Shown: positions 4,118 to 42,043 of the stretch, piece by piece
Numbering within the stretch: the first letter of the stretch is position 1
Layout of the letters: each line of letters opens with the position of its first letter
Source of the DNA: Chloroflexaceae bacterium
GTDB taxonomy: Bacteria > Chloroflexota > Chloroflexia > Chloroflexales > Chloroflexaceae
Length of the DNA: 55,280 bases
Direction of reading: 5' to 3'
Assembly: GCA_028282325.1 (NCBI GenBank)
Contig: JANQID010000057.1
Span: 1-55,280, forward strand
Position numbers and translations under genes: made by a program
Notes under the pieces: model-generated
What the model was told of the DNA's origin: nothing
The model's database searches: none
Seen by the model: only the letters and a program-made list of their open reading frames with translations

Positions 4118-4159
4118 CCGACCACCTCCGCCGGTCAGCATTATTGCATCCGGCGCTAT

Positions 4160-4216: not shown

Positions 4217-4249
4217 GGGGAAATGTGAGCGCCTCGCCGACGCCGAGCA

Positions 4250-5032: not shown

Positions 5033-5050
5033 GTCCTATCATATTGCGCT

Positions 5051-5506: not shown

Positions 5507-5743
5507 GGGTATTCGGCATGTAACGCGGCGAGTACAGAGATATTGCCCTACGTTTTGTAGGGGATCACCTCTAATAATACCAGGTTTTGCGGGGAAACAG
5601 AGCAGAGGCTTTCGGCAGGATTGAGCCGCGAATGATGGCGCTGACCGAATCAGGCTAGAGCGCGGCGGCTCGCGTATATGTTCAAGGGCAGACGCAAAGG
5701 CCGGCCCCTGAACGCAGATACAGGTCTACGCCTGTTGGTTTGA

Positions 5744-6280: not shown

Positions 6281-6293
6281 CATCGCTCCTCAT

Positions 6294-6905: not shown

Positions 6906-6919
6906 ATGCTGCGTCCTCC

Positions 6920-8341
6920 TCATTGCTTTGGCGGCAAGATCGTCACATCATCCGGCGGTTCGACGTCGGGGCCGTACAGATAGAAGTCTTCCCAGGGGTG
7001 ATAGTGCGTATAGAAGTTGTCATTGTGGAGCGTTTGGCCATCGGGCAGAGTCACGGTGCGAATATAATTCACATCGACGCCTGGACGGCCATGCACAAGC
7101 TGGCGAACCGCCCCGGCGGGCAATGCAGCGTCATACTGCCAGACCGGCGAACCGGGCTGGGTCCAGTTGCGGGTGTATGGACCCTCGTACGTCACGCTGC
7201 GCCCATCGTCATAGCCCCAGATGGCGAATGTTACGCGCGCCGTAGCCGGATCGGACGCGGCGGCGATGTACGTCGGGCCAAGCGAGTCGTTGAACCAGCG
7301 AAAATCGACGCTCGGTGTGTATACCGTTGCGTCGAAGCCAAGAATGTTCTCGTAGAAATAGACGATGAACGTGTGTCCCTGACGACGGGTGATCTGCAAA
7401 CCAGCATTCGACACCGCGCGAAACAGCGTGGTTGAGACCTGGCACAGCCCGCCCCCAACCACACGCTCCAATTGTCCGCCGACAATCGCGTAGCCATCCA
7501 CGAAGCCGTTTGCCTCAGAGAAATCGCCGACAGCGTTGAACGAGAATTCGGTGTTGGCCGGAACCATCACACCATCGAACATTGCAACGGCGCGGGCAAT
7601 ATTGTGATAGCGCTCGCTCGCCGATGTGGCGTAGCTCGTCGTGGCCTCTCCCAGCAGCGTGATCGGGTGGGCCGGAGCCGCCGCCGCCTGCGCGCGCGGG
7701 TCGCGTTCGAGCAACTGCCGGCCAAGCTGCCCCAACATCACCTCATAGTCGGTTCCGCGATGCTCGGGATGATACTCAAAGCGGGCGCGCTCGAAATACT
7801 GCACCAGGTAGGGCTGTCCGTCGTTGGGATTGATCTCGGTGAACTCCTCGGAGATCGGATAGCCGAAGACCGCCAGGCCGCCGTGTTGCTGCCAGAACCA
7901 GCGGAAAGCCCCGCCGAGGCTGTGACCAGCTTCGGGGAAGAAACGGCGATCCGCAGCAGAAGCGCCTTGTTGCCAGGCAAACGCCGAATCGGCGCGTCCT
8001 TCGGTCGCCAGCCGACCGACGTGCGAGAGCGTAACCCGAAACGCTTCGGGCAAATCCGGGCGCAATTCAAAACGAGCGCGCTCGAAGTACTGTACCTGCA
8101 CGTCATTCGCATCAAGAAACGGCTCGGTCAGCGGAAGGCCAAAGATGTCGATGCCGCCGTGTTCGGTATAGAAGCGCTTGAAATCGAAGCCGAGATTGTG
8201 GCTAGTTTCCGAAAAGTAGGCAAACGCCTGAGATGGATCGGCGTTTGCGGGCGCGGTGCGGGCAGTCATTCGGGGTTGCGCGATGACGAGGGTTAAGAGC
8301 GCAGCCATCGCAAAGACCAGTGCGCGCAAACGATAGTTCAT
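6920..8341 (-). CDS. VanW-family protein with N-terminal LGFP-like repeats
   Basis: An exported 473-residue protein. Residues 1-33 are a signal sequence. Two copies of a repeat of about 60 residues follow (around 40-105 and 130-200), each ending in an aromatic block such as VQYFERARFE; the second contains GGLAVFGYPISEEF. These resemble LGFP-like repeats found in many surface proteins of Chloroflexota. The VanW domain covers about 235-365 with EFSFNAVGDFSEANGF and GGGLCQVSTTLFRA. VanW proteins are associated with cell-wall peptidoglycan but their activity is unknown. TAGGAG precedes the start by 6 nt. The stop overlaps the first possible start of the methyltransferase gene. Confidence 0.88.
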   Translation of the reverse strand: MNYRLRALVFAMAALLTLVIAQPRMTARTAPANADPSQAFAYFSETSHNLGFDFKRFYTEHGGIDIFGLPLTEPFLDANDVQVQYFERARFELRPDLPEAFRVTLSHVGRLATEGRADSAFAWQQGASAADRRFFPEAGHSLGGAFRWFWQQHGGLAVFGYPISEEFTEINPNDGQPYLVQYFERARFEYHPEHRGTDYEVMLGQLGRQLLERDPRAQAAAAPAHPITLLGEATTSYATSASERYHNIARAVAMFDGVMVPANTEFSFNAVGDFSEANGFVDGYAIVGGQLERVVGGGLCQVSTTLFRAVSNAGLQITRRQGHTFIVYFYENILGFDATVYTPSVDFRWFNDSLGPTYIAAASDPATARVTFAIWGYDDGRSVTYEGPYTRNWTQPGSPVWQYDAALPAGAVRQLVHGRPGVDVNYIRTVTLPDGQTLHNDNFYTHYHPWEDFYLYGPDVEPPDDVTILPPKQ

Positions 8342-8558
8342 CGACGACTCCTACATCATATGGTAGTAATGGTAGTACAGAACTGTTGTGCGGTTGTCGG
8401 TGAGCAATCGGGAGATGTGAGGCGCAATATTCGCCGCTGGCCAATAGGTCAGCAATCAATGGCATCGACGCAAACCTGACGGCATCGGCGGCAAACCCAT
8501 TATAATTTATTGTAGCATACCCCGAACCGAGTTGGAGACAATAAGCAAAAACGCAAGC

Positions 8559-8601
8559 TTGACATACACATGACGAATGTGCTAGAATGGAAGCGGTTCC
8601 A
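8559..8601 (+). promoter_or_regulatory. Promoter and LacI-type operator of the LacI regulator gene
   Basis: TTGACA (8559-8564) and TAGAAT (8583-8588) with an 18-bp spacer are followed directly by TGGAAGCGGTTCCA (8588-8601), a palindrome with arms TGGAA/TTCCA of the form bound by LacI-family proteins. The operator covers the expected transcription start, so the regulator probably represses itself. The rest of the 8342-8698 gap holds a TATAAT-like sequence near 8500 that could serve the divergent vanW gene, and the hairpin listed separately. Confidence 0.75.
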
Positions 8602-8631
8602 ATGCCATCCTTACATCTTTTATGATTTTGC

Positions 8632-8657
8632 CCATTACATCGTTGTAATGGCTTTTT
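8632..8657 (+). terminator. Attenuator-like hairpin in the lacI-family leader
   Basis: A perfect 8-bp stem (CCATTACA 8632-8639, TGTAATGG 8644-8651) with a TCGT loop is followed by CTTTTT. It lies between the promoter and the LacI start codon at 8699, so it could end transcription early. The T-run is short, so strength is uncertain. Confidence 0.5.
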
Positions 8658-8698
8658 GAGTTCGTAACTCAACTGGATTGGCGTTTTTCCGAGGTCGT

Positions 8699-9718
8699 AT
8701 GAGCGCCACTATTCGCGATGTCGCACGCAAGGCCGGCGTTGGTCTGGGCACCGTATCACGAGTGCTGAACGATAGCCCCCTGGTGAGTTCCGCCACTCGC
8801 CAGCGTGTCCTCAACGTCATCGCCGAACTTAACTACATGCCGAGCCACGCCGCGCGCAGCCTCTCGCTCGGCAAAACGCTCACCGTCGCCACTATTGCGC
8901 CCTTTTTTACACGCCCTTCCGTCGTTGAGCGGTTGTGCGGCATCGAGGCCAACCTCACCGGCAGCGGGTATCACCAGATTTTCTTTAATGTCGAGAATGT
9001 TGAACGCCGCAATGAGTGCCTGCGTGACGTATCGCGCCGCGAATACGCCGACGGCGTGCTGATTATCTCGCTCACGCCGCACGCAGACGAGATCGCGCCA
9101 ATCTTGAAATCGCATATGCCCGTTGTATTAATCGATGCCGAGGCGTCTGGACTAACCGACGTCCGTGTTGATAACCCGTACGGCGGATACCTGGCGACGC
9201 AGCATTTGATCGATCTGGGGCATCAAAATATTGCGTACCTGAGCGATCCGCTGCAAGATCCGCTGTATTTTGACTTCACCAGCAGTCGCGATCGGTATCA
9301 GGGCTACTGCAAAGCGCTGAACGACGCCGACATACCCATTCGTCCCGACAATCACGTTTGGGGCTTGCACGGAAGGTACGAGGCGCGCTGTCTTGCCCGA
9401 AACTTGCTATCACGTTACGATCGGCCCACAGCTATTTTTGCCGCCAGCGACACCCAGGCGATGGGAGTGCTGGAAGCGGCACGTGATCTCAGTGTGCGTG
9501 TTCCTGATGAATTGTCGGTCATTGGATTCGATGATATCGATGTCGCCGAATATCTGGGATTGACAACAATCCGCCAACCACTGTTTGAGTCCGGTGCGCG
9601 TGGTGTGGAACTGCTTCTGGAGATACTCGGATCAGAAGAGTCATATCTTCCGCCGAAGCATGAAATGCTTCCAATCGAGCTTGTCGTTCGTTCAACCACT
9701 GCACCGTGTCAGGAATAA
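8699..9718 (+). CDS. LacI-family transcriptional regulator
   Basis: A 339-residue regulator with an N-terminal LacI helix-turn-helix (TIRDVARKAGVGLGTVSRVL, residues 4-23) and hinge, then a periplasmic-binding-protein-like sugar domain to the C-terminus (IFAASDTQAMGVLEAARDL and VIGFDDIDVAEYL are typical). It probably binds a glucoside and controls the ABC transporter and malQ genes that follow. ATG 8699 has GAGG 4 nt upstream; a TTG 21 bp earlier is in frame but adds residues ahead of the conserved start. A LacI-type palindrome lies over its own promoter. The gene ends 121 bp before the binding-protein gene. Confidence 0.92.
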   Translation: MSATIRDVARKAGVGLGTVSRVLNDSPLVSSATRQRVLNVIAELNYMPSHAARSLSLGKTLTVATIAPFFTRPSVVERLCGIEANLTGSGYHQIFFNVENVERRNECLRDVSRREYADGVLIISLTPHADEIAPILKSHMPVVLIDAEASGLTDVRVDNPYGGYLATQHLIDLGHQNIAYLSDPLQDPLYFDFTSSRDRYQGYCKALNDADIPIRPDNHVWGLHGRYEARCLARNLLSRYDRPTAIFAASDTQAMGVLEAARDLSVRVPDELSVIGFDDIDVAEYLGLTTIRQPLFESGARGVELLLEILGSEESYLPPKHEMLPIELVVRSTTAPCQE

Positions 9719-9839
9719 AAAGCACGCCATCAGGCGTGACGCCGGAAAGGGGGTGGTAGGTGACGATTTTCGTCCGTGTTCTGATGTTCGCAGATGTATA
9801 AGCTATGGAAAGCTGTTTTGTATCAGTGGAGGATACACT

Positions 9840-11421: not shown

Positions 11422-12537
11422 ATGCAGCAACAACTCCAACAGCCGGAAAAAGGATCATTTCTGAGCTGGTTCACCACAGGCGTGGGCAGGGTGATCGTCG
11501 CCCTGATTGTTCCTATCATTACATTTGCTATTCTCTGGCAAAGCTTCGTCTTTATGCGTGATACCGAAGCGCCAAAGCTGCTCATTGCGTTGGTTGCGCT
11601 GGTGGTGGGAGTAGTTGGCGTCTGGGCGCTCTATATTGGCACAAACTTCTTCATTGAGCAATTGCCAGGTCGGGTGCGCGATGCGCTGCGGCCCTATCTG
11701 TTTGTCGGCCCGGCAATGGTGATCCTGGGTGTGTTCTTGATATATCCTGCTATCGGAACCATCTACTTGAGCTTCTTCGACGCTCGATCAGAAAGCTTTA
11801 TCGGCGTGCAAAACTACGCCTTCGCTTTCGTCGACTCGGCGATGCTGATCGCTCTACGCAACAATCTGCTCTGGATTATTCTCGTAACCGGCTTTACCGT
11901 ATCGGTCGGGCTATTGGTGGCCGTGCTCGTGGACAGACTCTCGCAATGGGAAGAGGCTGCCGCAAAATCGCTGATTTTTATGCCGATGGCGATCTCGGCT
12001 GTGGGCGCGAGCGTCATCTGGAGCTTTATGTATTTCGCCAAGCCGATCACCCAGCCACAGATCGGCACGCTGAACGCAATCATCACCGGGTTTGGCGGAG
12101 AGCCAGTGTTGTTCTTGCTTGACAAAGCCATTAACAACTTCGCGTTGATCGCGATTCAAATCTGGTTGCTTACCGGTTTTTGTATGGTCATTCTCTCGTC
12201 GGCGGTCAAAGGCGTTCCCGACGAGTTGCTCGAAGCGGCGCGGATCGACGGCGCGAACGAGTTTCAGGTATTCTTCCGCATCCTCGTTCCCAGCATTATG
12301 CCAACCATTCTCACCGTTTCGACAACCGTTTTTATCATTGTTCTGAAAACCTTTGATATCGTCTATGTGATGACCAATGGACGACGTGATACAGAAGTCG
12401 TCGCCAATCGTATGTTCAACGAACTCTTTCGATTTGGCAATAGCGGGCACGCCAGCGCCCTCGCGGTCGTCCTGTTGCTGGCGGTGTTACCAATCATATA
12501 TTGGAATCTGCGAAGTCTTCGTGAGCAAAGGAGCTAA
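11422..12537 (+). CDS. Sugar ABC transporter permease (MalF/AglF type)
   Basis: Integral membrane permease of 371 residues. Helices lie near residues 18-40, 48-66 and 88-110, then the binding-protein-dependent transport core from about 150 to 365. The EAA loop that contacts the ATPase is visible as DELLEAARIDGANEFQVFFR. It pairs with the next permease. The ATG at 11422 is preceded by GGAGGAG at 7 nt; the frame extends 17 codons further without support. No ATPase subunit gene lies in this cluster, so a shared MsmK/MalK-type ATPase elsewhere must power it (inference from how other sugar importers work). Confidence 0.92.
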   Translation: MQQQLQQPEKGSFLSWFTTGVGRVIVALIVPIITFAILWQSFVFMRDTEAPKLLIALVALVVGVVGVWALYIGTNFFIEQLPGRVRDALRPYLFVGPAMVILGVFLIYPAIGTIYLSFFDARSESFIGVQNYAFAFVDSAMLIALRNNLLWIILVTGFTVSVGLLVAVLVDRLSQWEEAAAKSLIFMPMAISAVGASVIWSFMYFAKPITQPQIGTLNAIITGFGGEPVLFLLDKAINNFALIAIQIWLLTGFCMVILSSAVKGVPDELLEAARIDGANEFQVFFRILVPSIMPTILTVSTTVFIIVLKTFDIVYVMTNGRRDTEVVANRMFNELFRFGNSGHASALAVVLLLAVLPIIYWNLRSLREQRS

Positions 12538-12540
12538 ACG

Positions 12541-13449
12541 ATGAGCGCACCGCCTCAAACTGGACCCATAACAGTCGCTAGCCCGTCACGCACGGCTGCA
12601 CGCAGAAGCTTGCGCGACATCCTCTCGGCTTCTTCGGTGCGATTCGTCGTGCTTGTGCTCTGCTTTCTCTGGTCGGTGCCGACATTCGGCCTGTTTATTA
12701 GCTCATTCCGCAATGCGCAGGCGATTAATAATAGCGGCTGGTGGAGCACCTTTTATACCTCTACCGAGTTCACGATACAGAATTACGTGACGGTTTTAAC
12801 GGCTGAAGGGATGGGCAATGCCTTCTTGAATAGCATCATCGTCACCGTGCCCTCGGTTGTTATTCCGATTACCATCGCCGCGTTCGCCGCCTATGCCTTC
12901 GCCTGGCTCGAATTTCCCGGCCGTGACCTGTTCTTTGCTATTGTGGTCTTGCTGCTGGTTGTGCCGTTGCATACCACGCTGGTACCCATCCTGCGCATGT
13001 ATGTCGGCCTTGACCTGAACGGCACGTTCCTGGGCATCTGGCTCGCCCATACCGGTTTCGGCCTGCCGCTCGCCACTTATCTGCTGTATGGCTATATCTC
13101 TACGATCCCGAAAGAAATTATGGAAGCGGTGGTGATTGATGGCGCCACCCCGTTCACAACCTTTACGCGCATGGTGCTGCCGCTCTCGGTTCCGGCCATC
13201 GCCTCGTTCGCAATTTTCCAGTTTCTCTGGGTCTGGAACGACCTGCTGGTGGCATTGGTGTTCCTGGGAACCAACTCGGAGGTGTCGGTGGTGACCCGCC
13301 AGCTTACCGAGTTGGTCGGCTCCAAAGGCCAGAACTGGGAAGTGCTTACTGCCGGCGCATTCATAACGATGATCGTCCCGCTGATCGTCTTCTTCTCGCT
13401 GCAACGCTACTTCGTGCGCGGTATGATGGCCGGCTCAGTCAAAGGATAA
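12541..13449 (+). CDS. Sugar ABC transporter permease (MalG/AglG type)
   Basis: Second membrane subunit of the importer, 302 residues and six predicted helices. The first helix is at about residues 35-58. The EAA motif MEAVVIDGATPFTTFTRMVL lies at about residue 195. It starts 3 bp after the stop of the first permease, so the two are translationally linked. The N-terminal 30 residues are polar and cytoplasmic. A 16-bp hairpin follows the stop. Confidence 0.93.
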   Translation: MSAPPQTGPITVASPSRTAARRSLRDILSASSVRFVVLVLCFLWSVPTFGLFISSFRNAQAINNSGWWSTFYTSTEFTIQNYVTVLTAEGMGNAFLNSIIVTVPSVVIPITIAAFAAYAFAWLEFPGRDLFFAIVVLLLVVPLHTTLVPILRMYVGLDLNGTFLGIWLAHTGFGLPLATYLLYGYISTIPKEIMEAVVIDGATPFTTFTRMVLPLSVPAIASFAIFQFLWVWNDLLVALVFLGTNSEVSVVTRQLTELVGSKGQNWEVLTAGAFITMIVPLIVFFSLQRYFVRGMMAGSVKG

Positions 13450-13473
13450 GGTGCGTGTCGTACATCAGATAGC

Positions 13474-13516
13474 CAACAGAAACGCAGGAGGCGCACAGCT
13501 TCCTGCGTTTCTGTTG
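13474..13516. terminator. 16-bp hairpin after the permease genes
   Basis: Perfect 16-bp stem (arms 13474-13489 and 13501-13516, arm CAACAGAAACGCAGGA) with an 11-nt loop, 25 bp after the permease stop. There is no T-run, so termination efficiency is unclear. malQ, which starts 92 bp later, may have its own promoter (TATGCTACAAT near 13560). Confidence 0.65.
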
Positions 13517-13607
13517 CCACAAGCCGCCTATATACCCCATCGTGCGAAATGCGGATTGTATGCTACAATGCACTCGCTCTGCAAGTAACGTATTATGCGA
13601 GGTTTCT

Positions 13608-15155
13608 ATGCGTTTTCCCCGTTCAAGCGGGATACTTTTGCATCCCACGTCACTACCGGGGCCGTGGGGTATTGGGGATTTAGGCGTCGCTGCCTACCAG
13701 TTCGTCGATTTTCTGGTAGAGGCCGGACAGAGTCTCTGGCAGATCCTGCCTCTTGGACCAATTGGCTATGGAAACTCGCCGTACCAGTGTTTCTCGGCAT
13801 TTGCCGGAAATCCGCTCCTGATTAGCCTGGACAGCCTGGTTGCGGATGGATTGCTGGACGCCCAGGACGTGCACGCCGCATCGACTGCGGTCACCTATGA
13901 TCTCAATCCGGATCGGGTCAATTATCATGCGGCAACAGCGTTCAAGCTTCCGCTCCTGCGGCGCACGTACGAGCGATTCCGCGACGGCGACTTTTCCACA
14001 CATGCCGAGCAGTTCGAGCAATACTGCGCCGAAAACGCCGACTGGCTCGATGACTATGCGCTCTTTATGGCTCTGCGCGAGCATTACGGCGACGTGAGTT
14101 GGTGCGACTGGGATCAGAACATTGCGACGCGCAAAGCCGCCGCGCTCAAGCGTTGGACCAAACAACTGGCCGAACCTATCGCCGTCCAGAAGTTTGTGCA
14201 GTATCTCTTCTCAAATCAGTGGCGACAACTGAAAGCGTATGCGAATGAACAAGGCGTGCAGATCATCGGCGATGCGCCGATCTTCGTTGCCTATGATAGC
14301 TCCGATGTCTGGGCCAACCCGAAGTTGTTCTATCTGGATAACGTTGGCCAGCCGACGGTCGTGGCCGGCGTGCCGCCCGATTATTTCAGTGCTGTCGGCC
14401 AACGCTGGGGCAATCCGCTCTATCGTTGGGATCGGATGGCGCGCAATGATTATACCTGGTGGGTTGCACGCCTCAGAGTACTGCTCAGCCAGGTCGATAT
14501 TGCACGGATCGATCACTTCCGCGGGTTTGAGGCCTATTGGGAAATTCCGGCTGAAGAGGAAACGGCGATCAACGGTCGCTGGGTTCCCGGACCGGGCGCC
14601 GCGTTGTTTGAAAAGCTAGAGCGCGAACTCGGCGAGGTGCCGATTATCGCCGAAGATCTCGGCGTGATTACCCCCGAAGTCGAAGCTCTGCGCGATCAGT
14701 TTCATATGCCCGGTATGAAGGTGTTGCAGTTCGCCTTTGGCGATACGCCGGCCAATCCCTATCTGCCGCACAACTACACAAACAACTGCATTGTCTACAC
14801 GGGCACTCATGACAACGATACCACTGCGGGCTGGTTTAACGCATTGGGCAGCAAAGAGCGCGAGGCGACCCAGCGCTATCTCGGGCGCGATGGCAGCGAC
14901 ATCAGTTGGGATCTCATCCGGCTGGCGTTGTCGTCGGTCGCCGATGCGGCGATTATCCCCTTGCAGGATGTGTTGCGCCTGGGCAGCGACGGACGTATGA
15001 ATGTACCCGGTTATCTTGGTGACAATTGGTCCTGGCGCTTCCGTGCAGAAATGCTCGATCCAGGCTTGGGGTATGGTCTGCGAATTATGACCGAAACCTA
15101 CGGTCGGCTAGCCCTGGTCGATGAAACGAGCGACGAAGACGAACCGGAAGCATAA
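13608..15155 (+). CDS. malQ: 4-alpha-glucanotransferase (amylomaltase)
   Basis: Cytosolic GH77 disproportionating enzyme of 515 residues that transfers maltosyl and longer units between 1,4-alpha-glucans. N-terminal MRFPRSSGILLHPTSLPGP is typical. The catalytic regions are visible: ARIDHFRGF (nucleophile Asp), IIAEDLGVI (acid/base Glu) and GTHDNDT (third Asp). Length matches the bacterial family. The frame is open 22 codons further upstream, but ATG 13608 has GAGG 7 nt before it and matches the family start. It follows the sugar importer and probably acts on the imported maltodextrin. Confidence 0.96.
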   Translation: MRFPRSSGILLHPTSLPGPWGIGDLGVAAYQFVDFLVEAGQSLWQILPLGPIGYGNSPYQCFSAFAGNPLLISLDSLVADGLLDAQDVHAASTAVTYDLNPDRVNYHAATAFKLPLLRRTYERFRDGDFSTHAEQFEQYCAENADWLDDYALFMALREHYGDVSWCDWDQNIATRKAAALKRWTKQLAEPIAVQKFVQYLFSNQWRQLKAYANEQGVQIIGDAPIFVAYDSSDVWANPKLFYLDNVGQPTVVAGVPPDYFSAVGQRWGNPLYRWDRMARNDYTWWVARLRVLLSQVDIARIDHFRGFEAYWEIPAEEETAINGRWVPGPGAALFEKLERELGEVPIIAEDLGVITPEVEALRDQFHMPGMKVLQFAFGDTPANPYLPHNYTNNCIVYTGTHDNDTTAGWFNALGSKEREATQRYLGRDGSDISWDLIRLALSSVADAAIIPLQDVLRLGSDGRMNVPGYLGDNWSWRFRAEMLDPGLGYGLRIMTETYGRLALVDETSDEDEPEA

Positions 15156-15175
15156 TCCTGTGCGTCAAGATAATT

Positions 15176-15226
15176 GAAGGTCTGGTCTGTAGCTTCAGCG
15201 ACATTGAAGCCGTGGACCAGACCTTC
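15176..15226. terminator. Bidirectional terminator between malQ and recF
   Basis: Two nested stems in the gap between convergent genes. The outer 12-bp stem is 15176-15187 with 15215-15226 (GAAGGTCTGGTC), and an inner 6-bp stem is GCTTCA/TGAAGC (15192-15197, 15205-15210). Confidence 0.75.
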
Positions 15227-15242
15227 TGCTTACTCGGAGCAT

Positions 15243-16421
15243 TTACCCAGGATAGACTTGCCCGTCCTCAACCCGCAGCCGATGGATATGCTGGAGAAAA
15301 ACGGCATCGAAGTCGCTCAAGTCGGTGGCGCTGAGCAACGTCTGCTGATCGGGTTGGGTGATAACGTGGAGCAGATGCGCACGACGCCGGGCATCGAGTT
15401 CGCTGAGCATATCATCGAGCAGCAAAACCGGCGCATCACCGCTGCGCGACCGCATCAATCTCGCTTCGGCCAGCTTGAGCGCCAATGTCACCCCGCGCTG
15501 CTGCCCGCGCGATCCGTACCGCCCCAGATTGATGCTATTGACTGTAAAGAGCAAATCGTCGCGATGCGGGCCGATCAACGTCTGCCCTCGCGCCAATTCA
15601 TCACGGCGTAATGCAACCAGCGCTTCCAGCATAGCCGCCGCGAGACCGCCAGCATCGGTCGCTCTGCCCAGGTCAAAACTCGGTTGGTAATTGATGCATA
15701 GCGGGTGCTCAACGGCCATAATATCGCGGAACAGCGGCCCGACAATGCGGTTGAGATCATCTACCGCCCGCAGACGTTCGGCCAGCACATAGCCCCCGGC
15801 GGCAACCAGCTCACGATCCCAGTAGGCTAATTCGTTATCTACCGCGTGCGCCGGACGCCGTCGCTCGCGCCAGGCGCGCAGCAGGCTGTTGCGTTGCTGG
15901 AGTAGCTTGTTGTATTGCGCGAGTGTGCGAACATAGTGCGGGTCAAGCTGCGACAACGTTATATCAATATAACGCCGTCGCTCGTTTGGCGGCCCATCAA
16001 CCAACATAATATCGGCGGGGGTGAACAGCACAACACGCAACTGCCCGATCAGATCCAGGGCGCGGGCATTACGGCGATCAATGCGCACGATCTTGTGTGC
16101 ATTGCCGGTCAACTGCCCATCATCATCGATACGCCGTTGCACGATGACTTCCAAACGGATATGGCCGCCGGCGCGCTGCACGCCAGCAGCAACCCGCGCA
16201 AACGGCGGCGTTCCGGCTTCGCCCTGGGCTTCCCAGCGCACCAATTCACGATCCGAGTTAATGCGCGGCGAGCGCGTGGTCGCCAGGAAAAACAGCGCTT
16301 CCAACAGGCTGGTTTTTCCGGTGGCGTTGGCGCCGTAGAAGAGGGTCACGCCTGCGCTCAATGCGAGATCAAGCCGCTGATAGTTGCGAAAATCGCGCAG
16401 GCTGAGGTTAGTTACGTGCAT
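15243..16421 (-). CDS. recF: DNA replication and repair protein RecF
   Basis: A 392-residue ABC-type SMC-like ATPase that loads RecA at single-strand gaps with RecO and RecR. Walker A is [16 protein letters not shown] (residue 30), the signature region is GSRGQQRG (about 310), and Walker B with the D-loop is [12 protein letters not shown] (about 345). The N-terminal [11 protein letters not shown] is diagnostic of RecF. It lies apart from dnaA and dnaN, 66 bp after the IDI gene on the same strand. No strong ribosome site precedes the ATG. Confidence 0.95.
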
Positions 16422-16487
16422 AATGACTAACGCCAGCGACGCACGACCAGGAGCGCCGGTCGCTAGCTGTCCGGCGTTTGTCGTCGC

Positions 16488-17528
16488 TCACCCATATTTC
16501 TCCAGGTTGAGCGAACGCAATGCATGCAAATCCGCGCAGCCTGAACAGAACATCGCGATACGCAATTCCTGGATATATCCCTGCAATCCTTCGATCACCG
16601 CTTCCGATCCGCGTTCGTTCACCGAATCGAACAACGCTGGCTTGGCCGTGCCCGCGAGATCGGCGCCCAACGCGATCGCCTTGGTGATGTCGATGCCGCT
16701 GCGGATGCCGCCGCTGCCAATGATCACGGCTTCAGGCAATGCGGCGCGCACTTGCCGTATCGCTTCGGTTGTGGGAAGCCCCCAACCGGCGAATGTGCTG
16801 GCAACGCGCGATTCGTTATCGGTTCTCTGGCGAAAGCGCTCAACCTCGCTCCAGCTTGTGCCGCCAGCCCCTGCAACATCGATGATCCGCACGCCGGCAT
16901 CATACAGCCGTTGCGCATCGCGCGCGCCGATTCCGTTGCCAACCTCTTTGGCAATAACCGGGACAGGCAGCTCGCGACAGACGGCCTCGATCTTCGCCAG
17001 GAGACCGCCGAAGTTGACATCGCCTTCCGGTTGTACAGCCTCCTGCAAAGGGTTTAGATGAAGAATCAACGCATCGGCTTCGATCATCTCCACCGCCCGG
17101 CGGCAGTGCTCGATGCCAAAGCTATAGTTCAGCTGCACCGCGCCCATATTGGCCATCAGCGGGATAGTCGGCGCTACCCGGCGCACCTGGTAAGTTGAAG
17201 AGAGGCGCGGGTCGATCACCGCCGCCCGCTGCGAACCGACGCCCATCGCCAATCCCAAATGTTCCGCCGCTTCCGCCAATGCTAGATTGATGCGTTCGGC
17301 GGCGTGCGCCCCGCCGGTCATCGAACTAATCAGCAGCGGCGCTTGCATAGGCTTGCCGAGAAACGTCGTGCTTGTAATGATACTATTGAGATCAAGCTCC
17401 GGGAGCGCGGTATGGGGCAGACGGTAGGCGGCGAAGCCGGTTGCGACACCCTTCGCATCTACATTTTCGTTCAGCACGATCCGGACATGATCAAGCTTCC
17501 GCGACTCGGTCATACTGGAGTCGGGCAT
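16488..17528 (-). CDS. fni: Type 2 isopentenyl-diphosphate delta-isomerase
   Basis: FMN- and NAD(P)H-dependent enzyme of 346 residues that interconverts isopentenyl and dimethylallyl diphosphate in isoprenoid synthesis. Diagnostic parts are RKLDHVRIVL near the N-terminus, LISSMTGGAHAAERINLALA, FMN-site segments MGVGSQRAA and LHLNPLQEAVQPEGD, and the C-terminal GSGGIRSGIDITKAIALGA phosphate loop. AAGGAG lies 8 nt before the ATG at 17528. Type 2 IDI is common in Chloroflexota. The gene precedes recF on the same strand by 66 bp and may share its transcript. Confidence 0.95.
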   Translation of the reverse strand: MPDSSMTESRKLDHVRIVLNENVDAKGVATGFAAYRLPHTALPELDLNSIITSTTFLGKPMQAPLLISSMTGGAHAAERINLALAEAAEHLGLAMGVGSQRAAVIDPRLSSTYQVRRVAPTIPLMANMGAVQLNYSFGIEHCRRAVEMIEADALILHLNPLQEAVQPEGDVNFGGLLAKIEAVCRELPVPVIAKEVGNGIGARDAQRLYDAGVRIIDVAGAGGTSWSEVERFRQRTDNESRVASTFAGWGLPTTEAIRQVRAALPEAVIIGSGGIRSGIDITKAIALGADLAGTAKPALFDSVNERGSEAVIEGLQGYIQELRIAMFCSGCADLHALRSLNLEKYG

Positions 17529-17737
17529 ACCGAACGCTCCTTTAGCTCAATTCGCATACATGGGCGCATATTGAGGAATGATACCAGCAAAGAAAGGGGG
17601 CGTCAAACCAAGTATCAGGCTCATTGACGCTCGCATACTGATGCGCTTAGACTGGCGGACAGTCCAGACAGGATACATTTACTGGTTATTATATGTTATG
17701 ATACCATACAATATCTGTTGACCGAAAGGAGTACACA

Positions 17738-17953
17738 ATGGCGATTGAGCAATTTCGCGTGCCGGCAGTCTCATGCCAGCACTGTATTCGAGCGATTACA
17801 ACGGAAGTGCAGGCCATCAAAGGTGTGCAGACGGTCGTAGTCAATTTGAATGACAAGTCGGTGCGAATCGAACACGACGGCAGTGTCGGCGTTGATACGC
17901 TGATGCAAGCGATCAACGAGGCAGGATACGACGAAGTGGCGGTGTTGGTTTAA
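17738..17953 (+). CDS. Heavy-metal-associated domain protein (CopZ-like)
   Basis: A 71-residue single HMA-domain protein with the metal-binding CxxC in SCQHC (residues 12-16) and the beta-alpha-beta-beta-alpha-beta pattern ending in INEAGYDEV. Such proteins carry Cu(I) to a P-type ATPase. AAAGGAG precedes the ATG. No copper ATPase or CsoR gene is adjacent, so its partner lies elsewhere or could be the P-type pump at 1883-4117. Confidence 0.88.
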   Translation: MAIEQFRVPAVSCQHCIRAITTEVQAIKGVQTVVVNLNDKSVRIEHDGSVGVDTLMQAINEAGYDEVAVLV

Positions 17954-18129
17954 GCGCCTATCACAAATTGGTGGCAAGGCTAACCTATGGGATCTGGACG
18001 GGCGACTCAGGTTAGCGTCGGAGGCACCCATCGCATACGATTTCGTGTGGCGGTTATGCAACGACCTGGGGTATGATGATCGACGTGGATTACGTATAAT
18101 CAGATACGCATCGAAAGAGAGGTCATCAT

Positions 18130-18954
18130 ATGATCGGGAGAGCTGCCGCCATTGGAGCTGTCGTCGTGGTTGCGCTGGTTGCAATTCTGGCGTACGCGTT
18201 TTTCCGAACGCCGGAAGAAGCCAGCGCACCGATCTCAGCAATTCCGTTGAATGCTACTGCAACATCTCAAACTAATGTCGAAAACGCAGCCGCGAACGAT
18301 GCGAGTACAGATGGCAATGCCGCGGACAACGCCCCAACTCAAACGGCTGCGCCAACTGATGCAACGGCAAATGAGGCCGAAGCCGCTGAGTCTGAACAGG
18401 CGACCGTCCCCGATGGCTTGACGGTCTTCGAAATCGTTCCAGCTGAATCCGAAGCTCGCTTCTTGATCGACGAAGTGCTGCGCGGCGATCCAATTACCGT
18501 GGTTGGCGCGACTGACCAGGTCGCCGGTCAGATTGCCATTGACCCGGAGCAGCTCACCGCCGTGCAGGTTGGCATTATCCAGGTCAATGCGCGTACCCTC
18601 GCCACCGATAATGAATTCCGCAACCGGGCAATCAAAAATCGCATTCTGCTGACCAACGACTATGAGTTCATTACGTTCACGCCGCTCGAAATGATCGGAT
18701 TGCCGGAGAGCGGCGCTGTCGGTGGAACATACAGCTTGCAAATTGCCGGCGATCTCACAATCACTGATGTCACTCGCTCAGTGACATTCGATGTCACCGT
18801 TACGCCAATCAGCGTGACACGCATTGAGGGGACGGCATCGGCGACCGTGATCTATACCGATTTTGAACTCTTCATCCCGGATTCTCCATCGGTAGATACA
18901 GTCGCGGACGAAGTGCGCCTGGAGTTGGAATTTGTGGCCGAGGCAATTCCCTAA
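18130..18954 (+). CDS. Membrane-anchored YceI-family protein
   Basis: A 274-residue protein with an N-terminal membrane anchor (residues 5-25), a low-complexity Ala/Thr/Asn/Glu linker (about 35-92) and a YceI lipocalin-like barrel (about 95-272). YceI proteins bind long-chain isoprenoids or other amphiphiles in their barrel; the ligand here is unknown. GAGAGG precedes the ATG and a TATAAT box is at 18095-18100. A strong palindromic terminator follows the stop. Confidence 0.88.
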   Translation: MIGRAAAIGAVVVVALVAILAYAFFRTPEEASAPISAIPLNATATSQTNVENAAANDASTDGNAADNAPTQTAAPTDATANEAEAAESEQATVPDGLTVFEIVPAESEARFLIDEVLRGDPITVVGATDQVAGQIAIDPEQLTAVQVGIIQVNARTLATDNEFRNRAIKNRILLTNDYEFITFTPLEMIGLPESGAVGGTYSLQIAGDLTITDVTRSVTFDVTVTPISVTRIEGTASATVIYTDFELFIPDSPSVDTVADEVRLELEFVAEAIP

Positions 18955-34515: not shown

Positions 34516-35667
34516 CTACATGCGAGCAACGTCGGGGCGTGCGCGCTCCTTGATAGTCTGATTGATCTCATTCCTGATCAACTCTGATTCATTGACCAGC
34601 ATGTGAAATTCGTTTTGATCAAGGATTGCAACCTCAACCTCGGTCTCCGGGGTTGCCCGCACGGTCGCCGTGCGGGTACGATTCTGGACCAGACCGACCT
34701 CACCAAAAAACTGACCGCTCTTTAGCCGATCAACGATGATTTCTTGACCATCAGGATGATGGAGAACAATCTCAACTTCGCCGCGCGTAATGATGAAGAA
34801 GTTGTCGGCAAGTTCGCCCTGATGAAAAATTGTCGCGCCCGGTGCGAACGTGCGCGTTTCGATCTGACGCGACACCCTGGTAAGCTGATCTACATTCAGC
34901 TTGGCAAGCGCCTGAGCGACATACTGGTTGACAATCTCCCCGTCGGCGACAATCACTGATCGCGTCGCCCGGCGCGCCAGGTCATTATCGTGGGTAACCA
35001 TCAGGATCGTTTTACCCTCGTCGATCAGCCCTTCAAAGAGCCGAAACACCGATGACGCCGTCCTTGAGTCGAGGTTGCCCGTCGGCTCGTCGGCGATGAC
35101 GATCGGCGGATCGTTGGCCAACGCACGGGCGATGGCGACCCGCTGCTGTTGCCCGCCGGAGATGGCTGAAGGGAGCTTGTAGGCATTCTCGGTCATATCA
35201 ACTTGCTCAAGCAGGTGCATTGCACGTTCGCGACGCACGCGCGGAGTGTACATATTACAAAAGTCCATCGGCAACATCACGTTCTCGATCACCGAAAGCG
35301 TCGGCAAGAGTTGGAAAAACTGAAAAATGATGCCGAGATTACGTCCGCGCCAGATCGCCATCTGCCCCTCGCTCAGTCGATGTACCGGGGTGTTGGCGAC
35401 GATAACCTCGCCGGAGGTCGGACGATCAATCCCGCTGATCATATTGATCAGCGTTGATTTGCCACTGCCTGATTTGCCGATCACGGCGACAAATTCGCCG
35501 GCGTTGACTTGCAAATCCACGTTTTTCAGAGCGGTAAATGATCCGGCCGCGCTCTGGTAGGTTTTCACTACGTCGCGCAGATCTATTAAGTAGCTTGACG
35601 TATCGCCTTTGGCGTTGTTGGATGTCGAAACGGTTTGAGGAGAGCGTTTCAGCCAGCCTCCAAACAT
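34516..35667 (-). CDS. ABC ATPase fused to a cyclic-nucleotide-binding domain
   Basis: A 383-residue protein. Residues 25-250 are a MacB/LolD-type ATPase (Walker [15 protein letters not shown], signature [15 protein letters not shown], Walker [19 protein letters not shown]). Residues 262-375 form a Crp-like cNMP-binding domain with [35 protein letters not shown] and an RTRTATVRA phosphate-binding-cassette region. The fusion suggests that cyclic nucleotide or another small ligand controls ATPase activity (inference). The cassette has FGEVGL followed later by RTATV, close to the canonical FGE-R-A pattern. It lies upstream of the HlyD2 gene with no permease nearby. Confidence 0.92.
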
Positions 35668-35911: not shown

Positions 35912-36004
35912 CGACTAGTCAGTCGATTTTAGTGTAACGTATAATATTCGAGATGTCAAAGACGTGGTGAGATGCTTTGCTCATCATACCTGGTGTAGTA
36001 TAAT
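35912..36004 (+). promoter_or_regulatory. Palindrome and promoter-like boxes between divergent operons
   Basis: The 548-bp gap 35668-36215 has no convincing gene. It holds CGACTAGTCAGTCG (35912-35925), similar to TetR-family operators, a TATAAT at 35940-35945 and another at 35999-36004. The latter, with TTGCTC 16 bp upstream, could serve the plus-strand STAND operon. No tetR gene is in the window. Confidence 0.4.
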
Positions 36005-36215: not shown

Positions 36216-39200
36216 TTGAACCTCGCGCCGATGCCAAGTACGATCATTCCCACTTCTGAGCCGCCTCCTCCCGCTCCCGCTCCCCTACGCGGCCCCTGGC
36301 TTGTCATCGTGCGTACAGGCTGGGCCCTGGTGACAAGCCTGACGCTGGTGATGGCGATTAGCGCCTTTTGGAAACGCCCCGCAGAACTGCAAACGCTGCT
36401 GGCCATCTATAATAATCCGCTCGCTCAACTGCATCTTCCTAAACCATTTGCCAGCGGTTATGTGCTCACTCTGGAGGCGGCAGCTGTTCTTTCGTTTATA
36501 TTCACTGCTCTCATACTCTTCTGGCGCAAATCTGACGATTGGGTAATCATTTTTGTTTCGCTTGCGCTGGTGACGTTCGGCGCGGCATCTAGCCCGGTAA
36601 TGGCGATTGTCAGATCCGAAACACATACCCTCGGCGCACTCATTCAAGCCGCCGGTTTTTCAAGCTTTCTGATTTTTCTCTACACGTTTCCTGAAGGGCG
36701 TTTCGTCGCACGCTGGACAGTCTGGTTGACAGTCGTGTGGACAGCCTGGCAGCTTGTTTCAGCATTGTTTGTCACGGCGCCAATGAGCTTGCTTCAGCTT
36801 TCAGACGAGAGCATCTTCATTACATTGGCATTTTTCGCCACCGGCTTGTTTGTGCAGTATCGCCGCTTTGCCGCCGCCGACCCGATGGAACGGCAGCGAA
36901 CGATATGGGTGCAAGTCAGCTTCGTGACCCTGTTTCTTGGCTATGCACTGTCGCTTATCGCACCGGATCCCGATCAATCATCGGCAAGTGTGATCGATCT
37001 CCTGACCGATATGACCTTCGCATCGGTGCAATATATCGGCCTGGCCTCAGCGCCCATAGCAATCAGTATGTCAACACTGCGTTTACGGTTGTGGGGAATC
37101 GCCCCGATCTCTAACCGCATATTGGTCTATTTTGTGCTGACGAGCATATTGCTCGTGGTCTATGCCGGCGCTGTGGTTATGATCCAGCGGTTGTTAATAT
37201 TCGAGATAGTCATTGACCGCGATTCGCTCCTGGCTATCGTGCTATCAACCTTGGGGATCGCCGCGCTGTTTTTGCCGTGGCGACAGCGGGTGCAAGCCTT
37301 CATTGATCGGCGCTTCTATCGTGAGAAAGTTGATGCGCAGCAAGCGATTACGTCGTTCTCGCAAGAAATTCGCACCATTATCGAGTTGCCGGATTTGCTG
37401 CGCAGACTAGTCTATCGTGTCACCGAACTGTTGCATATCACACGTAGCGCGGTATTTCTACGACAATCAGACGGCGTATTTCGGCTGGCCGAAGTCGCCG
37501 CCGATGCGGCCGCAATACCTTCTGCCGATCCGATGCATATGCGCAATGATTTGCAACTGGCAATCTCCCCGCATCAGCTAGAACGCCTGGCTTCAGGCGT
37601 TCCGATTCCGCGTTCACAGGACGCGCTGTTTCCGTTGCTGGTGCCATTGATGCTTCCTAATCTTGGCGGTTATACAAACGAATCTGCGTTGTTGGGTATA
37701 TTGGCGCTCGGCCCGCGCCTATCAGGACTGCACTACACGCGCGCCGACTCGGCATTATTGCAAAGCCTTGCCGATCAGGCCGGAACCGCGATTTATGTGG
37801 CGCAGTTGATCGCCGATCGTCAAGCTGAAATCGAACGCAAAGAAGCCATCGAGCGCCGCCTCGAGGAACACCGGAATTCGCCGATGGGCCAGGCGGAGGC
37901 GATGGCGCAGCGCATTCTGGAACATCCGGAACAGGCCCTGCGCGAGCTGCATCAGCTAGCGCAAACGTCGGGGCGCGATCCTGAAGCGACCAGTTTGATC
38001 GCCAATCTGCCAACCGCACTAGACAACCTCAACGCGGAAGCGATTGCCGGCATAGCCGAATGGTTCAACTATCTGGTGACCAGCCAGTTTGTCCCGGAGT
38101 TGTTGCCGGTCGGTTTGCGCACATTGCTTTCGCAACTTGAATTGGTCGCTGCGAATGATCGACGCCGGATCGATGCTCACGTCGAGCAGATCCTATCGGC
38201 GCACGACGAGACATTCGCCATCAAAGGCGCCGCCGAAGCGTTGATCGTCTATCGGTGGTGTCACGACGCTCTGGAGGCGAACAACATCAGTCAGATCACC
38301 GATCTGCGCACGCGTCTCCTCGAGCTTTGCAGGGATGACGCCGCTCAACCCGACGTTGATGACGTACTTGCCGATCTACGTCATTTTCTCGCCGAGTTGC
38401 TGCCGGCGATTGAAGCCTTGCAAGCGTACGAGCGCCTGGATGAGCTGCAAGATCGATTGGCTTATCTCGCCAGCACGGTAGAGCGATTGCGGCGCGTTGA
38501 TCGTATGTCGCGTATCGAACTAGGCGGCGCCGATCGCCTCGTTGTACAGCGGATCGCGGAAAATTGGCTGACCGTTTCGACCGGTGCGATGCTCGATCTT
38601 CAGGCGCGGGCGCGGGTCGTCTGCGAATTGCTCACCCGGCGTACCTGGCAGGTTGAAGTCATTTCGCTCACCCTTGAAGTCCATAACGTTGGACGCGGTG
38701 CGGCGCTCAATATGCGAATCGAGCTGTTGCCAACGTCCGACTATGACGTCCTTGATGCCACCGCGGAGATGGAGCGGCTCTCTGCCGGCGAAGAAGCGCA
38801 GATTGGTATGCGACTGCGTCTACGGTCGAGCACTAGCGCGAACCAGTTCCGTGTGCGTTTCATCATCCGCTACACCGATTCACACGGTGCGGATCAGGCT
38901 GAGCATTTCGCCGATGCTGTGCATATGCTCAGCGACGACGACGAGTTTCAGTTTATTCCCAACCCTTATGTCGTAGGCGCTCCGCTTCAATCTCAATCGC
39001 CGTTGTTCTTTGGACGCGAGGATGTTATCCACGCGATCTGTGAAAATCTGGCAAGCAAACATCGCAATAACCTGGCGCTGATCGGTCAACGGCGCACGGG
39101 CAAGACATCACTGTTGAAGCAACTCCCGGCTCGATTGGGTGATGCATATGTGCCGGTCTACCTGGATGGGCAGATCCTTGGGGTTGATCCTGGCCTCGAT

Positions 39201-40115
39201 AACTTCTTTCTTACGTTGGCAACCGAGATCGCATTCGCCCTGGAAGATCGCAACTTTGCCGTCACGCTGCCAGATCCGGAAGCATTTGCCAGACGCCCTG
39301 CCGCAGTCTTTGAGCGCCAATTCCTGGCAGATGTACGTGCAGCGATCGGAGATCGTCATCTGCTGATTATGCTCGATGAATTTGAAGAATTGGAGGCGGC
39401 TGTTCGGCGAGGCAACCTTGAACCTTCGATTTTCGGCTTTCTGCGTCACATGATCCAGCATACCGACAACTTGAGCTTCATCTTCTGCGGCACGCATCGC
39501 CTGGAGGAGCTAGCGGCAGACTACTGGAGCATCCTATTTAATATGAGCCTCTATCGACGAATCGGCCTGCTAGATCGGGCTGAGGCACAGCGCCTGATCC
39601 AGGAGCCCGTGGCGGATTACGGCATGCGCTACGACGACCTGGCGCTCGATAAAATCTGGCGGTTGACGGCGGGACATCCTTATCTGCTGCAATTGCTTTG
39701 TCATGATCTGGTCAACCAACACAACAAGACTCGCCGCAGCTATGTCACGGCGGCAGATGTGAATAGCGTGACCGACTCGATTGTCGCAGCGGGCGAAGCG
39801 CATGTTGTATATCTGTGGAACGAGTCAACCTATGCCGAACGGCTTGCCCTGGTCGTGTTAAGCCGCATTCTTCCGCTTGGCGGTTCGGTGTTGCCGAGGA
39901 AGATCTATGATTACCTTGCTGAGCGTGGAGTCAATATCGATCACCAGAAATTGAACACAGCATTGCATCGGCTAGTGCTTCGTGATATTCTCGCTATGAA
40001 CAGTGATATTGACGCAGCATTGGGCGAGCGCTATCGCTGGCGGCTGGGGTTGCTGGTATTGTGGGTCGAGCAGTATTGTTCATTAAGCCGCGTTGTCGAT
40101 GAGATGAACGTATGA
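36216..40115 (+). CDS. Membrane sensor with GAF, beta-sandwich and STAND ATPase domains
   Basis: About 1299 residues. The N-terminus is a Pro-rich tail followed by about eight membrane helices (about 30-330). Then come FIDRRFYREK (about 365) and a GAF-like sensor domain (about 375-535), an alpha-helical region (about 540-790), a CARDB-like beta-sandwich (about 800-905: VHNVGRGAALNMRIELLP, then a D-HGADQAEHF strand), and a STAND/AAA ATPase (about 915-1299) with GREDVI, Walker A GQRRTGKTSLL and Walker B LLIMLDEFEELE. It ends in a winged-helix-like region. The TTG at 36216 is 8 nt after AAGGAG; GTG 36207 and ATG 36231 are alternatives. The stop overlaps the next start (ATGA). It probably senses a membrane or cytosolic signal and drives STAND assembly; the signal is unknown. 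Confidence 0.85.
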   Translation: MNLAPMPSTIIPTSEPPPPAPAPLRGPWLVIVRTGWALVTSLTLVMAISAFWKRPAELQTLLAIYNNPLAQLHLPKPFASGYVLTLEAAAVLSFIFTALILFWRKSDDWVIIFVSLALVTFGAASSPVMAIVRSETHTLGALIQAAGFSSFLIFLYTFPEGRFVARWTVWLTVVWTAWQLVSALFVTAPMSLLQLSDESIFITLAFFATGLFVQYRRFAAADPMERQRTIWVQVSFVTLFLGYALSLIAPDPDQSSASVIDLLTDMTFASVQYIGLASAPIAISMSTLRLRLWGIAPISNRILVYFVLTSILLVVYAGAVVMIQRLLIFEIVIDRDSLLAIVLSTLGIAALFLPWRQRVQAFIDRRFYREKVDAQQAITSFSQEIRTIIELPDLLRRLVYRVTELLHITRSAVFLRQSDGVFRLAEVAADAAAIPSADPMHMRNDLQLAISPHQLERLASGVPIPRSQDALFPLLVPLMLPNLGGYTNESALLGILALGPRLSGLHYTRADSALLQSLADQAGTAIYVAQLIADRQAEIERKEAIERRLEEHRNSPMGQAEAMAQRILEHPEQALRELHQLAQTSGRDPEATSLIANLPTALDNLNAEAIAGIAEWFNYLVTSQFVPELLPVGLRTLLSQLELVAANDRRRIDAHVEQILSAHDETFAIKGAAEALIVYRWCHDALEANNISQITDLRTRLLELCRDDAAQPDVDDVLADLRHFLAELLPAIEALQAYERLDELQDRLAYLASTVERLRRVDRMSRIELGGADRLVVQRIAENWLTVSTGAMLDLQARARVVCELLTRRTWQVEVISLTLEVHNVGRGAALNMRIELLPTSDYDVLDATAEMERLSAGEEAQIGMRLRLRSSTSANQFRVRFIIRYTDSHGADQAEHFADAVHMLSDDDEFQFIPNPYVVGAPLQSQSPLFFGREDVIHAICENLASKHRNNLALIGQRRTGKTSLLKQLPARLGDAYVPVYLDGQILGVDPGLDNFFLTLATEIAFALEDRNFAVTLPDPEAFARRPAAVFERQFLADVRAAIGDRHLLIMLDEFEELEAAVRRGNLEPSIFGFLRHMIQHTDNLSFIFCGTHRLEELAADYWSILFNMSLYRRIGLLDRAEAQRLIQEPVADYGMRYDDLALDKIWRLTAGHPYLLQLLCHDLVNQHNKTRRSYVTAADVNSVTDSIVAAGEAHVVYLWNESTYAERLALVVLSRILPLGGSVLPRKIYDYLAERGVNIDHQKLNTALHRLVLRDILAMNSDIDAALGERYRWRLGLLVLWVEQYCSLSRVVDEMNV

Positions 40116-42043
40116 ACAAAGCTAATCCTTACATTTCGCGCGGGCCGGTGCGCGATCCGGCAATGTTCTACGGGCGGAAGCACGAGCTTGAGGAACTCGT
40201 GGCATTCTTGCGTGGTAATCAGTCGGTGTCGTTGATCGGTCCGCGAAAGATTGGCAAAACATCGCTGCTGTTCCATATTATGCGACCGGAGATCGGCAAC
40301 CGGTTGGGTCTGGGGGAAGAGACGCTCGTCGTGTATCTAAACTGCGAAATACTGGCTGATATTACCCAGGAGGACGTGTTCAGCCAGTTCGCCAGCGAGA
40401 TCGCTACGAGCCTGGAGGAGCGCAACGCGCCGCCGGAACCGTTGCTTGAGGCCGTGCTGAATAAGCCTTCACGGCTGACATTTGAGGCGGCGGTGCGCAA
40501 GCTAAATCGACGCGGCCTGCAAATTGTAATATTGCTCGATGAATTCGAACGCCTGAGCACCAACACTCGGCTTGACGCCAACTTTTTCAACGGTTTGCGT
40601 TCGGCGGCGGGGCGCTATCAACTGGTTTTTGTGACGGCTTCGGCAAGCCCCCTGATTGAACTGACCTACGCCGAACGAGCGCAGTCGATCCTCTCTAGCC
40701 CGTTTTTCAACATTTTTGCTCCGCTGTTCCTCGGACTGCTGTCGAACGTCGAGGTGCGCCAACTGATTACCGAGCCGGCGGAACGCGCTGGTTCGCCGTT
40801 TGACGCAGAGACGGCTGATATGATCAGTGATCTGGCAGGCGGGCATCCGTTCGCATTGCAGATCGCATGCTTCCATGCCTTTGAGCGTTCGGGCGCATAT
40901 GCGCAGATCGAGCAACGTGCGCTCAGCGAGCTTGAATCTCACTTTCAGTACTATTGGCGCAACTTGACGCCTCTTGAACAAGATGTGCTGCGTCATCTCG
41001 CGGAAGCGGGCGCGCGGGCGCCTGATGACACGAACCTGCGCGGGGCGCTCCGTGATCTAATGCGCAAATGCCTGGCGGTGTCTCATAGCGGCGCCTATCA
41101 CTATCCCTCGCGGGCCTGGGAAGCGTTTGTCGCTGCGCAAAAAACAGCTACCCCGACAGATGAACTCGCATTTACGCCAATAGTTGTCCGACAGGAAGCG
41201 CAGCCAGATAGTCTGATCGGGGCGTGGATCGGCCCGTACAACGTGATCGAGTTGATCGGGCGCGGAGGCATGGCCGAGGTCTACAAGGGATGGCATGCAC
41301 AGCTTGAGCGCGAGGTGGCGATCAAAATGTTGCCGGCGATCCTGGCGAATGACAGCCGGTTTCGTCAGCGTTTTGAGCGTGAAGCGCGTTCTATCGCTGC
41401 GCTAAAACATCCAAATATCGTGCAGGTGTTTGATTTTGGTGAGGCCTATGGCGGCGTCTACATGGTGATGGAGTATATCTCCGGTCGCGATCTTGGCAAG
41501 CTGTTGAAGGACAATGGCTCGTTTCCGCTCAGTCAGGCCTTGTGGATCGTGCATGATATCGCCGACGCGCTTGACTATGCCCACGCGGCGGGAGTAATCC
41601 ATCGCGATGTGAAGCCATCCAACGTCCTGCTTGAACCGGTGACATCTGCGGGCGAGCGTATGTGGCGAGGAGTGCTTACTGATTTTGGCATTGCGCGGAT
41701 TCTCAATAGTCCGACCCAGGTAACTCAGACCGGCGCAATGATCGGAACGCTCGATTATATGGCGCCGGAGCAGATCAATGCATCGCCGCATGTAGATGGA
41801 CGCGCCGACATCTACGCAATCGGCGTTATGCTCTTTCAAATGCTCACAGGCGCGCTGCCCTTCGACGGAGAAACTCCGGCGATGGTGATGGTTTCCCACC
41901 TCAACCAGGAACCGCCTGACCCGCGTGGACTGGTTCCCGATCTGCCGGATGCTGTCGCCAGCGCAATTTTACGCGCACTGGCAAAGGATCCTGCCGCGCG
42001 TTTCGCCGCCGTGCGCGCCTTGGTTGACGCACTTGCACAATAA
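40112..42043 (+). CDS. STAND ATPase fused to Ser/Thr protein kinase
   Basis: A soluble 643-residue protein. Residues 1-350 are a STAND/AAA ATPase: FYGRKHELEEL, Walker A GPRKIGKTSLL (about 46), Walker B IVILLDEFERLS (about 142), and GGHPFALQIACFHAFE from the helical lid. A linker follows (350-372), then a complete Hanks-type kinase (about 375-643): GRGGMAEVYKG loop, VAIK lysine, HRDVKPSN catalytic loop (about 496), DFG (about 523) and APE. All catalytic residues are present. No membrane helix or PASTA domain follows. The ATGA overlap couples it to the membrane STAND gene. The arrangement suggests that the two STAND modules interact and switch on the kinase. Substrates are unknown. Confidence 0.9.
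   Translation: MNKANPYISRGPVRDPAMFYGRKHELEELVAFLRGNQSVSLIGPRKIGKTSLLFHIMRPEIGNRLGLGEETLVVYLNCEILADITQEDVFSQFASEIATSLEERNAPPEPLLEAVLNKPSRLTFEAAVRKLNRRGLQIVILLDEFERLSTNTRLDANFFNGLRSAAGRYQLVFVTASASPLIELTYAERAQSILSSPFFNIFAPLFLGLLSNVEVRQLITEPAERAGSPFDAETADMISDLAGGHPFALQIACFHAFERSGAYAQIEQRALSELESHFQYYWRNLTPLEQDVLRHLAEAGARAPDDTNLRGALRDLMRKCLAVSHSGAYHYPSRAWEAFVAAQKTATPTDELAFTPIVVRQEAQPDSLIGAWIGPYNVIELIGRGGMAEVYKGWHAQLEREVAIKMLPAILANDSRFRQRFEREARSIAALKHPNIVQVFDFGEAYGGVYMVMEYISGRDLGKLLKDNGSFPLSQALWIVHDIADALDYAHAAGVIHRDVKPSNVLLEPVTSAGERMWRGVLTDFGIARILNSPTQVTQTGAMIGTLDYMAPEQINASPHVDGRADIYAIGVMLFQMLTGALPFDGETPAMVMVSHLNQEPPDPRGLVPDLPDAVASAILRALAKDPAARFAAVRALVDALAQ

Follow-up and report, generated by a model that had tools for sequence, protein, structure and literature searches.

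The window analysed here, a 55,280-nucleotide stretch (positions 1 to 55,280 of contig JANQID010000057.1, assembly GCA_028282325.1) from a Chloroflexaceae bacterium, carries on its forward strand two overlapping genes that each encode a STAND ATPase. Gene A runs from 36216 (a TTG start behind GGAG, although a GTG at 36207 is also possible) to 40115, and gene B from 40112 to 42043. The features of the pair are as follows.

36216..40115 (+): gene A, putative sensor subunit of 1299 aa (TM domain, GAF, helical bundle, beta-sandwich, STAND ATPase, winged helix)
36303..37247 (+): A, multi-helix membrane domain (about residues 30-344, nine hydrophobic segments by hydropathy)
37386..37793 (+): A, GAF domain (PF01590)
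37740..38606 (+): A, predicted 46-residue helix then helical bundle (residues 130-418 of the AlphaFold2 model)
38616..38930 (+): A, predicted beta-sandwich (AlphaFold2 strands 422-526), CARDB-like in relatives, where the CARDB hits are weak
39018..39812 (+): A, STAND/NOD ATPase, with Walker A at 39084-39107, Walker B DE at 39375-39380 and an invariant Arg at 39444-39446
39831..40067 (+): A, predicted winged helix after the ATPase (AlphaFold2 residues 827-905)
40112..40115 (+): ATGA overlap of the stop of A and the start of B
40112..42043 (+): gene B, putative output subunit of 643 aa (STAND ATPase, winged helix, flexible linker, Ser/Thr kinase)
40124..40960 (+): B, nSTAND2 ATPase (PF20702), with Walker A at 40238-40261, Walker B DE at 40538-40543 and an invariant Arg at 40598-40600
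40970..41137 (+): B, predicted winged helix (AlphaFold2 residues 287-342)
41237..42019 (+): B, Hanks-type, PknB-like kinase with complete catalytic motifs (PF00069)

The initial annotation of this pair, which described two ATGA-overlapping genes with intact Walker motifs, one carrying a membrane domain, a GAF sensor and a beta-sandwich and the other a complete Hanks kinase, is correct. In a Pfam search, A matches GAF (E 5e-5, a weak hit but above its cut-off) and nSTAND1/AAA_22 (E 4e-10 and 5e-9), whereas B matches nSTAND2 (E 1e-18; 67.6 bits for a cut-off of 24) and Pkinase (E 1.4e-50). Walker A is GQRRTGKT in A and GPRKIGKT in B and Walker B is DE in both; among relatives, Walker B is DE in 92/92 A and 67/75 B. 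The kinase keeps AIK, HRD, DFG and APE, and all ten kinases of the window clade keep the catalytic motifs. The AlphaFold2 models (A residues 380-1299, mean pLDDT 90, pTM 0.67; B, mean pLDDT 87.9, pTM 0.59) confirm the beta-sandwich (about A 801-905) and add parts that had not been listed, i.e. the 46-residue helix and the helical bundle between GAF and sandwich, a winged helix after each ATPase domain (in B assigned from the secondary structure of the model only) and a disordered linker before the kinase of B. The ATPase of A resembles the archaeal ATPases 2qen and 2fna (Z 24.4 and 21.7), Orc2 (21.7), the NRC4 resistosome (19.3), CED-4 (18.7) and Avs3 (14.6); the list of structural matches was filled by this domain, so that it gave no relatives of the GAF, helical and sandwich parts. 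In a Foldseek search, the kinase of B is nearest to PknB/PknA.

The frequency with which homologues of the two genes are adjacent had been named beforehand as the observation that could defeat the idea of a two-protein system, and the pair passed this examination strongly. A scan of 400 Chloroflexota genomes with A, followed by retrieval of the loci, showed a second, smaller STAND gene of B type beside almost every A-type gene, and a scan of GTDB genomes returned 80 named loci, nearly all labelled Chloroflexota. Of 63 dereplicated Chloroflexota A genes with at least 1.8 kb on both sides, 52 have B within 2 kb and 46 within 300 bp. B is also adjacent in all 16 more distant A loci with sequence on the relevant side. 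In the reverse direction, all 8 strong nSTAND2 hits in 151 Chloroflexota genomes lie next to an A gene; at about one such hit per 19 genomes, chance adjacency would be far below one in a thousand. Among 68 pairs, 60 are on the same strand and 24 overlap (loci L073, L074 and L079 show the same ATGA overlap as the window), and A and B tree distances correlate (r 0.93, reached by 0/2000 permutations), although gene adjacency and correlated trees also arise from simple co-inheritance. The A and B ATPases form two separate clades (100/100). The apparent exceptions are informative: of five genomes in which A stands alone (loci L100, L102, L106, L118 and L125), four keep a wHTH-tailed B of matching type (441-451 aa) elsewhere, and in a sixth (L086) a B lies several kb away on the same contig.

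It could be argued that A and B are made together but work apart, each ATPase forming homo-oligomers while the operon only sets expression or stoichiometry, as each domain alone is a complete NOD with winged helix and as some genomes carry the two genes at separate places. This appears unlikely given the near-universal pairing although front ends and outputs are exchanged, the retention of both genes in 4 of 5 genomes where they are separated and the separation of the A and B clades throughout.

The front end of A is modular. In the window clade, it consists of 6-9 TM segments plus GAF, 6 or more segments being conserved in clade members with a complete N terminus. The same TM+GAF module precedes HisKA_3/HATPase_c in the window's own genome (locus L003) and HisKA in another genome (L034). 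In the largest group of relatives, it is an FG-GAP/PQQ beta-propeller (FG-GAP in 29 of 41 scanned A fronts), mostly followed by a TM near 920-960 and often preceded by a signal peptide; in Ktedonobacteria, the propeller protein has no TM segment. Others carry TPR, FGE or BNR repeats.

The tail of B varies too: it is an OmpR-type DNA-binding domain (Trans_reg_C) in 39 of 75, a kinase in 10, EAD7 in 6, CHAT in 1 and a TM helix in 2, while Ktedonobacteria have a conserved tail that we read as HTH-like, without Pfam match. The kinase-tailed B of the window clade form one clade (100/99), and the closest B relatives outside it have DNA-binding tails. Some clade members (L075 and L080) keep both a wHTH-tailed and a kinase-tailed B around one A. 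One relative (L050/L081) keeps a B without kinase and without the Walker B Glu, so the kinase is dispensable there, though that locus has a second, wHTH-tailed B. A second kinase-tailed B lineage lies beside a different multi-TM A; the B tree separates the two kinase lineages but holding them together is not rejected (AU p 0.2), so that two acquisitions are not claimed and one common origin is not excluded.

Only one of the 400 sampled Chloroflexota genomes besides the window's gave a near-full-length match to A (48% identity). The kinase-tailed relatives found are mostly from Anaerolineae or unclassified Chloroflexi MAGs, while a genome of the window's own family has the related TM+GAF A with a wHTH B. 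This patchiness suggests transfer between lineages. The GC content of the genes is ordinary for the window.

The initial annotation considered stress signalling or a defence-type surveillance device and cautioned that nothing in the neighbourhood proves defence; this caution was right. A scan of 64 neighbouring proteins of the window clade against PADLOC revealed no recurrent system, the only candidates being one type IIG enzyme and one type III methylase. The matches of B to defence kinases, including PADLOC PD-T4-6, were set aside as generic kinase matches, and the kinase scores 170.6 for a cut-off of 460 with the MADS6 model (NF047741). Furthermore, the sensor module is of the histidine kinase type. 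However, more distant pairs carry conflict-type domains (EAD7, TCAD9/NUDIX, CHAT, NNH2/EAD10 and FGE), a plasmid of Acinetobacter ursingii has an A fused to a type I methylase/specificity subunit next to a B with degraded Walker B, and two-gene STAND operons were predicted to be counter-invader (Kaur et al. 2021, PMC8195603). A counter-invader device, in which A would sense an infection signal and the kinase would act as the effector, is possible but unlikely for the window pair. The two-STAND pair seems to be a general platform used for conflict in some lineages and, as argued here, for signalling in this one.

Taken as a whole, the pair can be viewed as one signalling unit, a reading to which we give a probability of about 0.7. 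STAND proteins switch from an ADP-bound closed form to ATP-bound assemblies (MalT, PMC4381067). In this model, A sits in the membrane and senses through its TM/GAF front end, and the signal would pass down the long helix and the helical bundle to the STAND ATPase of A, which, in its ATP state, would recruit or co-assemble with the homologous STAND domain of B. Assembly would bring together the kinase domains of B, which would trans-autophosphorylate and phosphorylate targets; PknB is activated by dimerisation. In most relatives, the same slot of B holds an OmpR-type DNA-binding domain, so assembly would change transcription there. The analysis itself establishes the domain anatomy, the intact motifs, the conserved pairing, the co-inheritance and the swapping of sensors on A and outputs on B, whereas the contact between A and B, the ATP-driven assembly, the direction from A to B, the activation of the kinase by clustering, the signal and the targets are inferred. 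An Arg after Walker B is invariant in A and B and is a candidate arginine finger that might contact the partner across such an interface, but its role was not shown, which leaves this point undecided. No complex was modelled or measured, and signal-driven oligomerisation, which needs protein, was not assayed. Loci L077 and L078 allow an in-frame A-B read-through, but B rows aligned onto the A domain, so no reliable paired alignment was possible and the tandem was not folded. The proposal of the initial annotation, that a mixed STAND complex passes a membrane signal to a kinase, is only partly supported: it fits the modular swapping at both ends. A further possibility, which we consider doubtful, is that the kinase of B phosphorylates A or a neighbouring envelope protein, the STAND domains serving mainly as scaffold. 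A 460-500 aa beta-helix plus multi-TM protein lies beside the pair in 7 clade loci and would be part of such a system, but it is absent from the window and the window's own genome has only a weak match elsewhere.

More broadly, and about as likely as not, these pairs might be a widespread Chloroflexota class of transmembrane signalling in which paired STAND ATPases do the job of histidine kinase and receiver, with interchangeable sensors on a STAND receptor protein and DNA-binding or Hanks-kinase outputs on a STAND output protein. If so, bacteria have a second general way to build a two-protein membrane-to-gene or membrane-to-kinase relay, using the switch class behind plant and animal immune receptors and the apoptosome. 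This would link predicted two-STAND conflict operons to ordinary signalling and make a testable system for how two different STAND proteins assemble together.

The anatomy reads as a rebuilt two-component system: two genes, sensor and responder, with an input module also found on histidine kinases and, among relatives, the commonest output of OmpR-type response regulators. However, neither HisKA/HATPase_c in A nor a receiver in B was found by the Pfam search, STAND ATPases standing in their places. MalT and other classical STAND regulators (PMC4381067) share the NOD ATPase with winged helix as switch, signal-driven assembly being the established model for that class, but MalT is one polypeptide with sensor and output, whereas here they are split over two proteins that each own a NOD. 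A kinase joined to a STAND-like ATPase also occurs in PknK. Compared with PknB/PASTA kinases and STAND-kinase fusions such as PknK, B has no PASTA domains (325.6 bits for a cut-off of 450 with NF033483), its kinase is C-terminal, its ATPase is of nSTAND2 type and a paired STAND sensor is encoded next door.

The initial annotation knew of no named system with this layout, which needs correcting. Literature searches for STAND pairs in Chloroflexota gave nothing beyond Kaur et al. 2020/2021, but Kaur, Iyer, Burroughs and Aravind described in one paragraph (PMC8195603, Fig. 6C; prediction only) a mobile two-gene operon with a STAND NTPase in each gene, predicted to form a toroidal hetero-multimer with a counter-invader role, in which one inactive partner bears GT4 or HEPN effectors. 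In that operon type, both proteins belong to nSTAND2 and both partners have a conserved arginine finger; in the window pair, the invariant Arg after Walker B is only a candidate for the latter. The window pair shares the plan of two adjacent genes that each encode a STAND NTPase of this neighbourhood of sequence space, and B matches the nSTAND2 model. Intermediate cases also exist, as the Walker B Glu is lost only in the B of Ktedonobacteria and of one clade member (L050) and Walker B is degraded in the plasmid pair. Nevertheless, the A of the window has no PF20702 match up to E 1 (relatives of A reach 16-22 bits), both Walker motifs are intact in the two partners, A is a membrane sensor and the output is a kinase, or a DNA-binding domain in relatives, rather than GT4 or HEPN. 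The window pair is therefore not filed as a member of this operon type: the two-gene, two-STAND plan was already predicted, and the pair differs in that both ATPases look active, A is a membrane sensor and the outputs are regulatory.

Upstream of the pair, the window carries two features in the vicinity of gene A:

34516-35667, divergent from A: ATPase of an ABC exporter fused to a cyclic-nucleotide-binding domain, adjacent to an HlyD gene.
35912-35925, between this ABC gene and A: palindrome CGACTAGTCAGTCG, located near promoter-like sites and resembling a TetR-type operator.

In seven relatives (loci L050, positions 5868-7304, L072, L073, L075, L076, L077 and L080), the window-type pair is accompanied by a protein of 460-500 aa that has a signal peptide, beta-helix-like repeats and several TM helices but does not match any Pfam family. 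This protein is absent from the window. A second group of B genes with a kinase tail (loci L205-L208) lies 0.6-1.7 kb from an A gene that has a different multi-TM front and no GAF match. In Chloroflexales bacterium ZM16-3 (L053, positions 12341-18220, the same locus as L123), an A gene encoding a TM+GAF front and a B gene encoding a wHTH tail lie beside a kinase-FHA gene, an FHA-Tail_P2_I gene and a Baseplate_J gene. This STAND pair is located next to what looks like a contractile injection system cluster.

In Ktedonobacteria (L054, L056, L057, L059, L063, L064 and L066), B has lost the Glu of Walker B (DA, DG or DV) while its partner A retains DE, so that only one ATPase of the pair looks able to hydrolyse. 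Other A-B pairs (L140, L142 and L144-L146) are conflict-type variants, with TCAD9 and NUDIX domains seen on the A protein of L140 and EAD7 on B. Finally, a plasmid of Acinetobacter ursingii (NZ_MH220285.1; L190, positions 2062-9827) carries a gene encoding a restriction subunit, followed by a gene encoding a type I methylase/specificity protein fused to an A-type STAND, which overlaps a B-type STAND gene whose Walker B is degraded. This locus is a two-STAND restriction system carried by a mobilizable plasmid.
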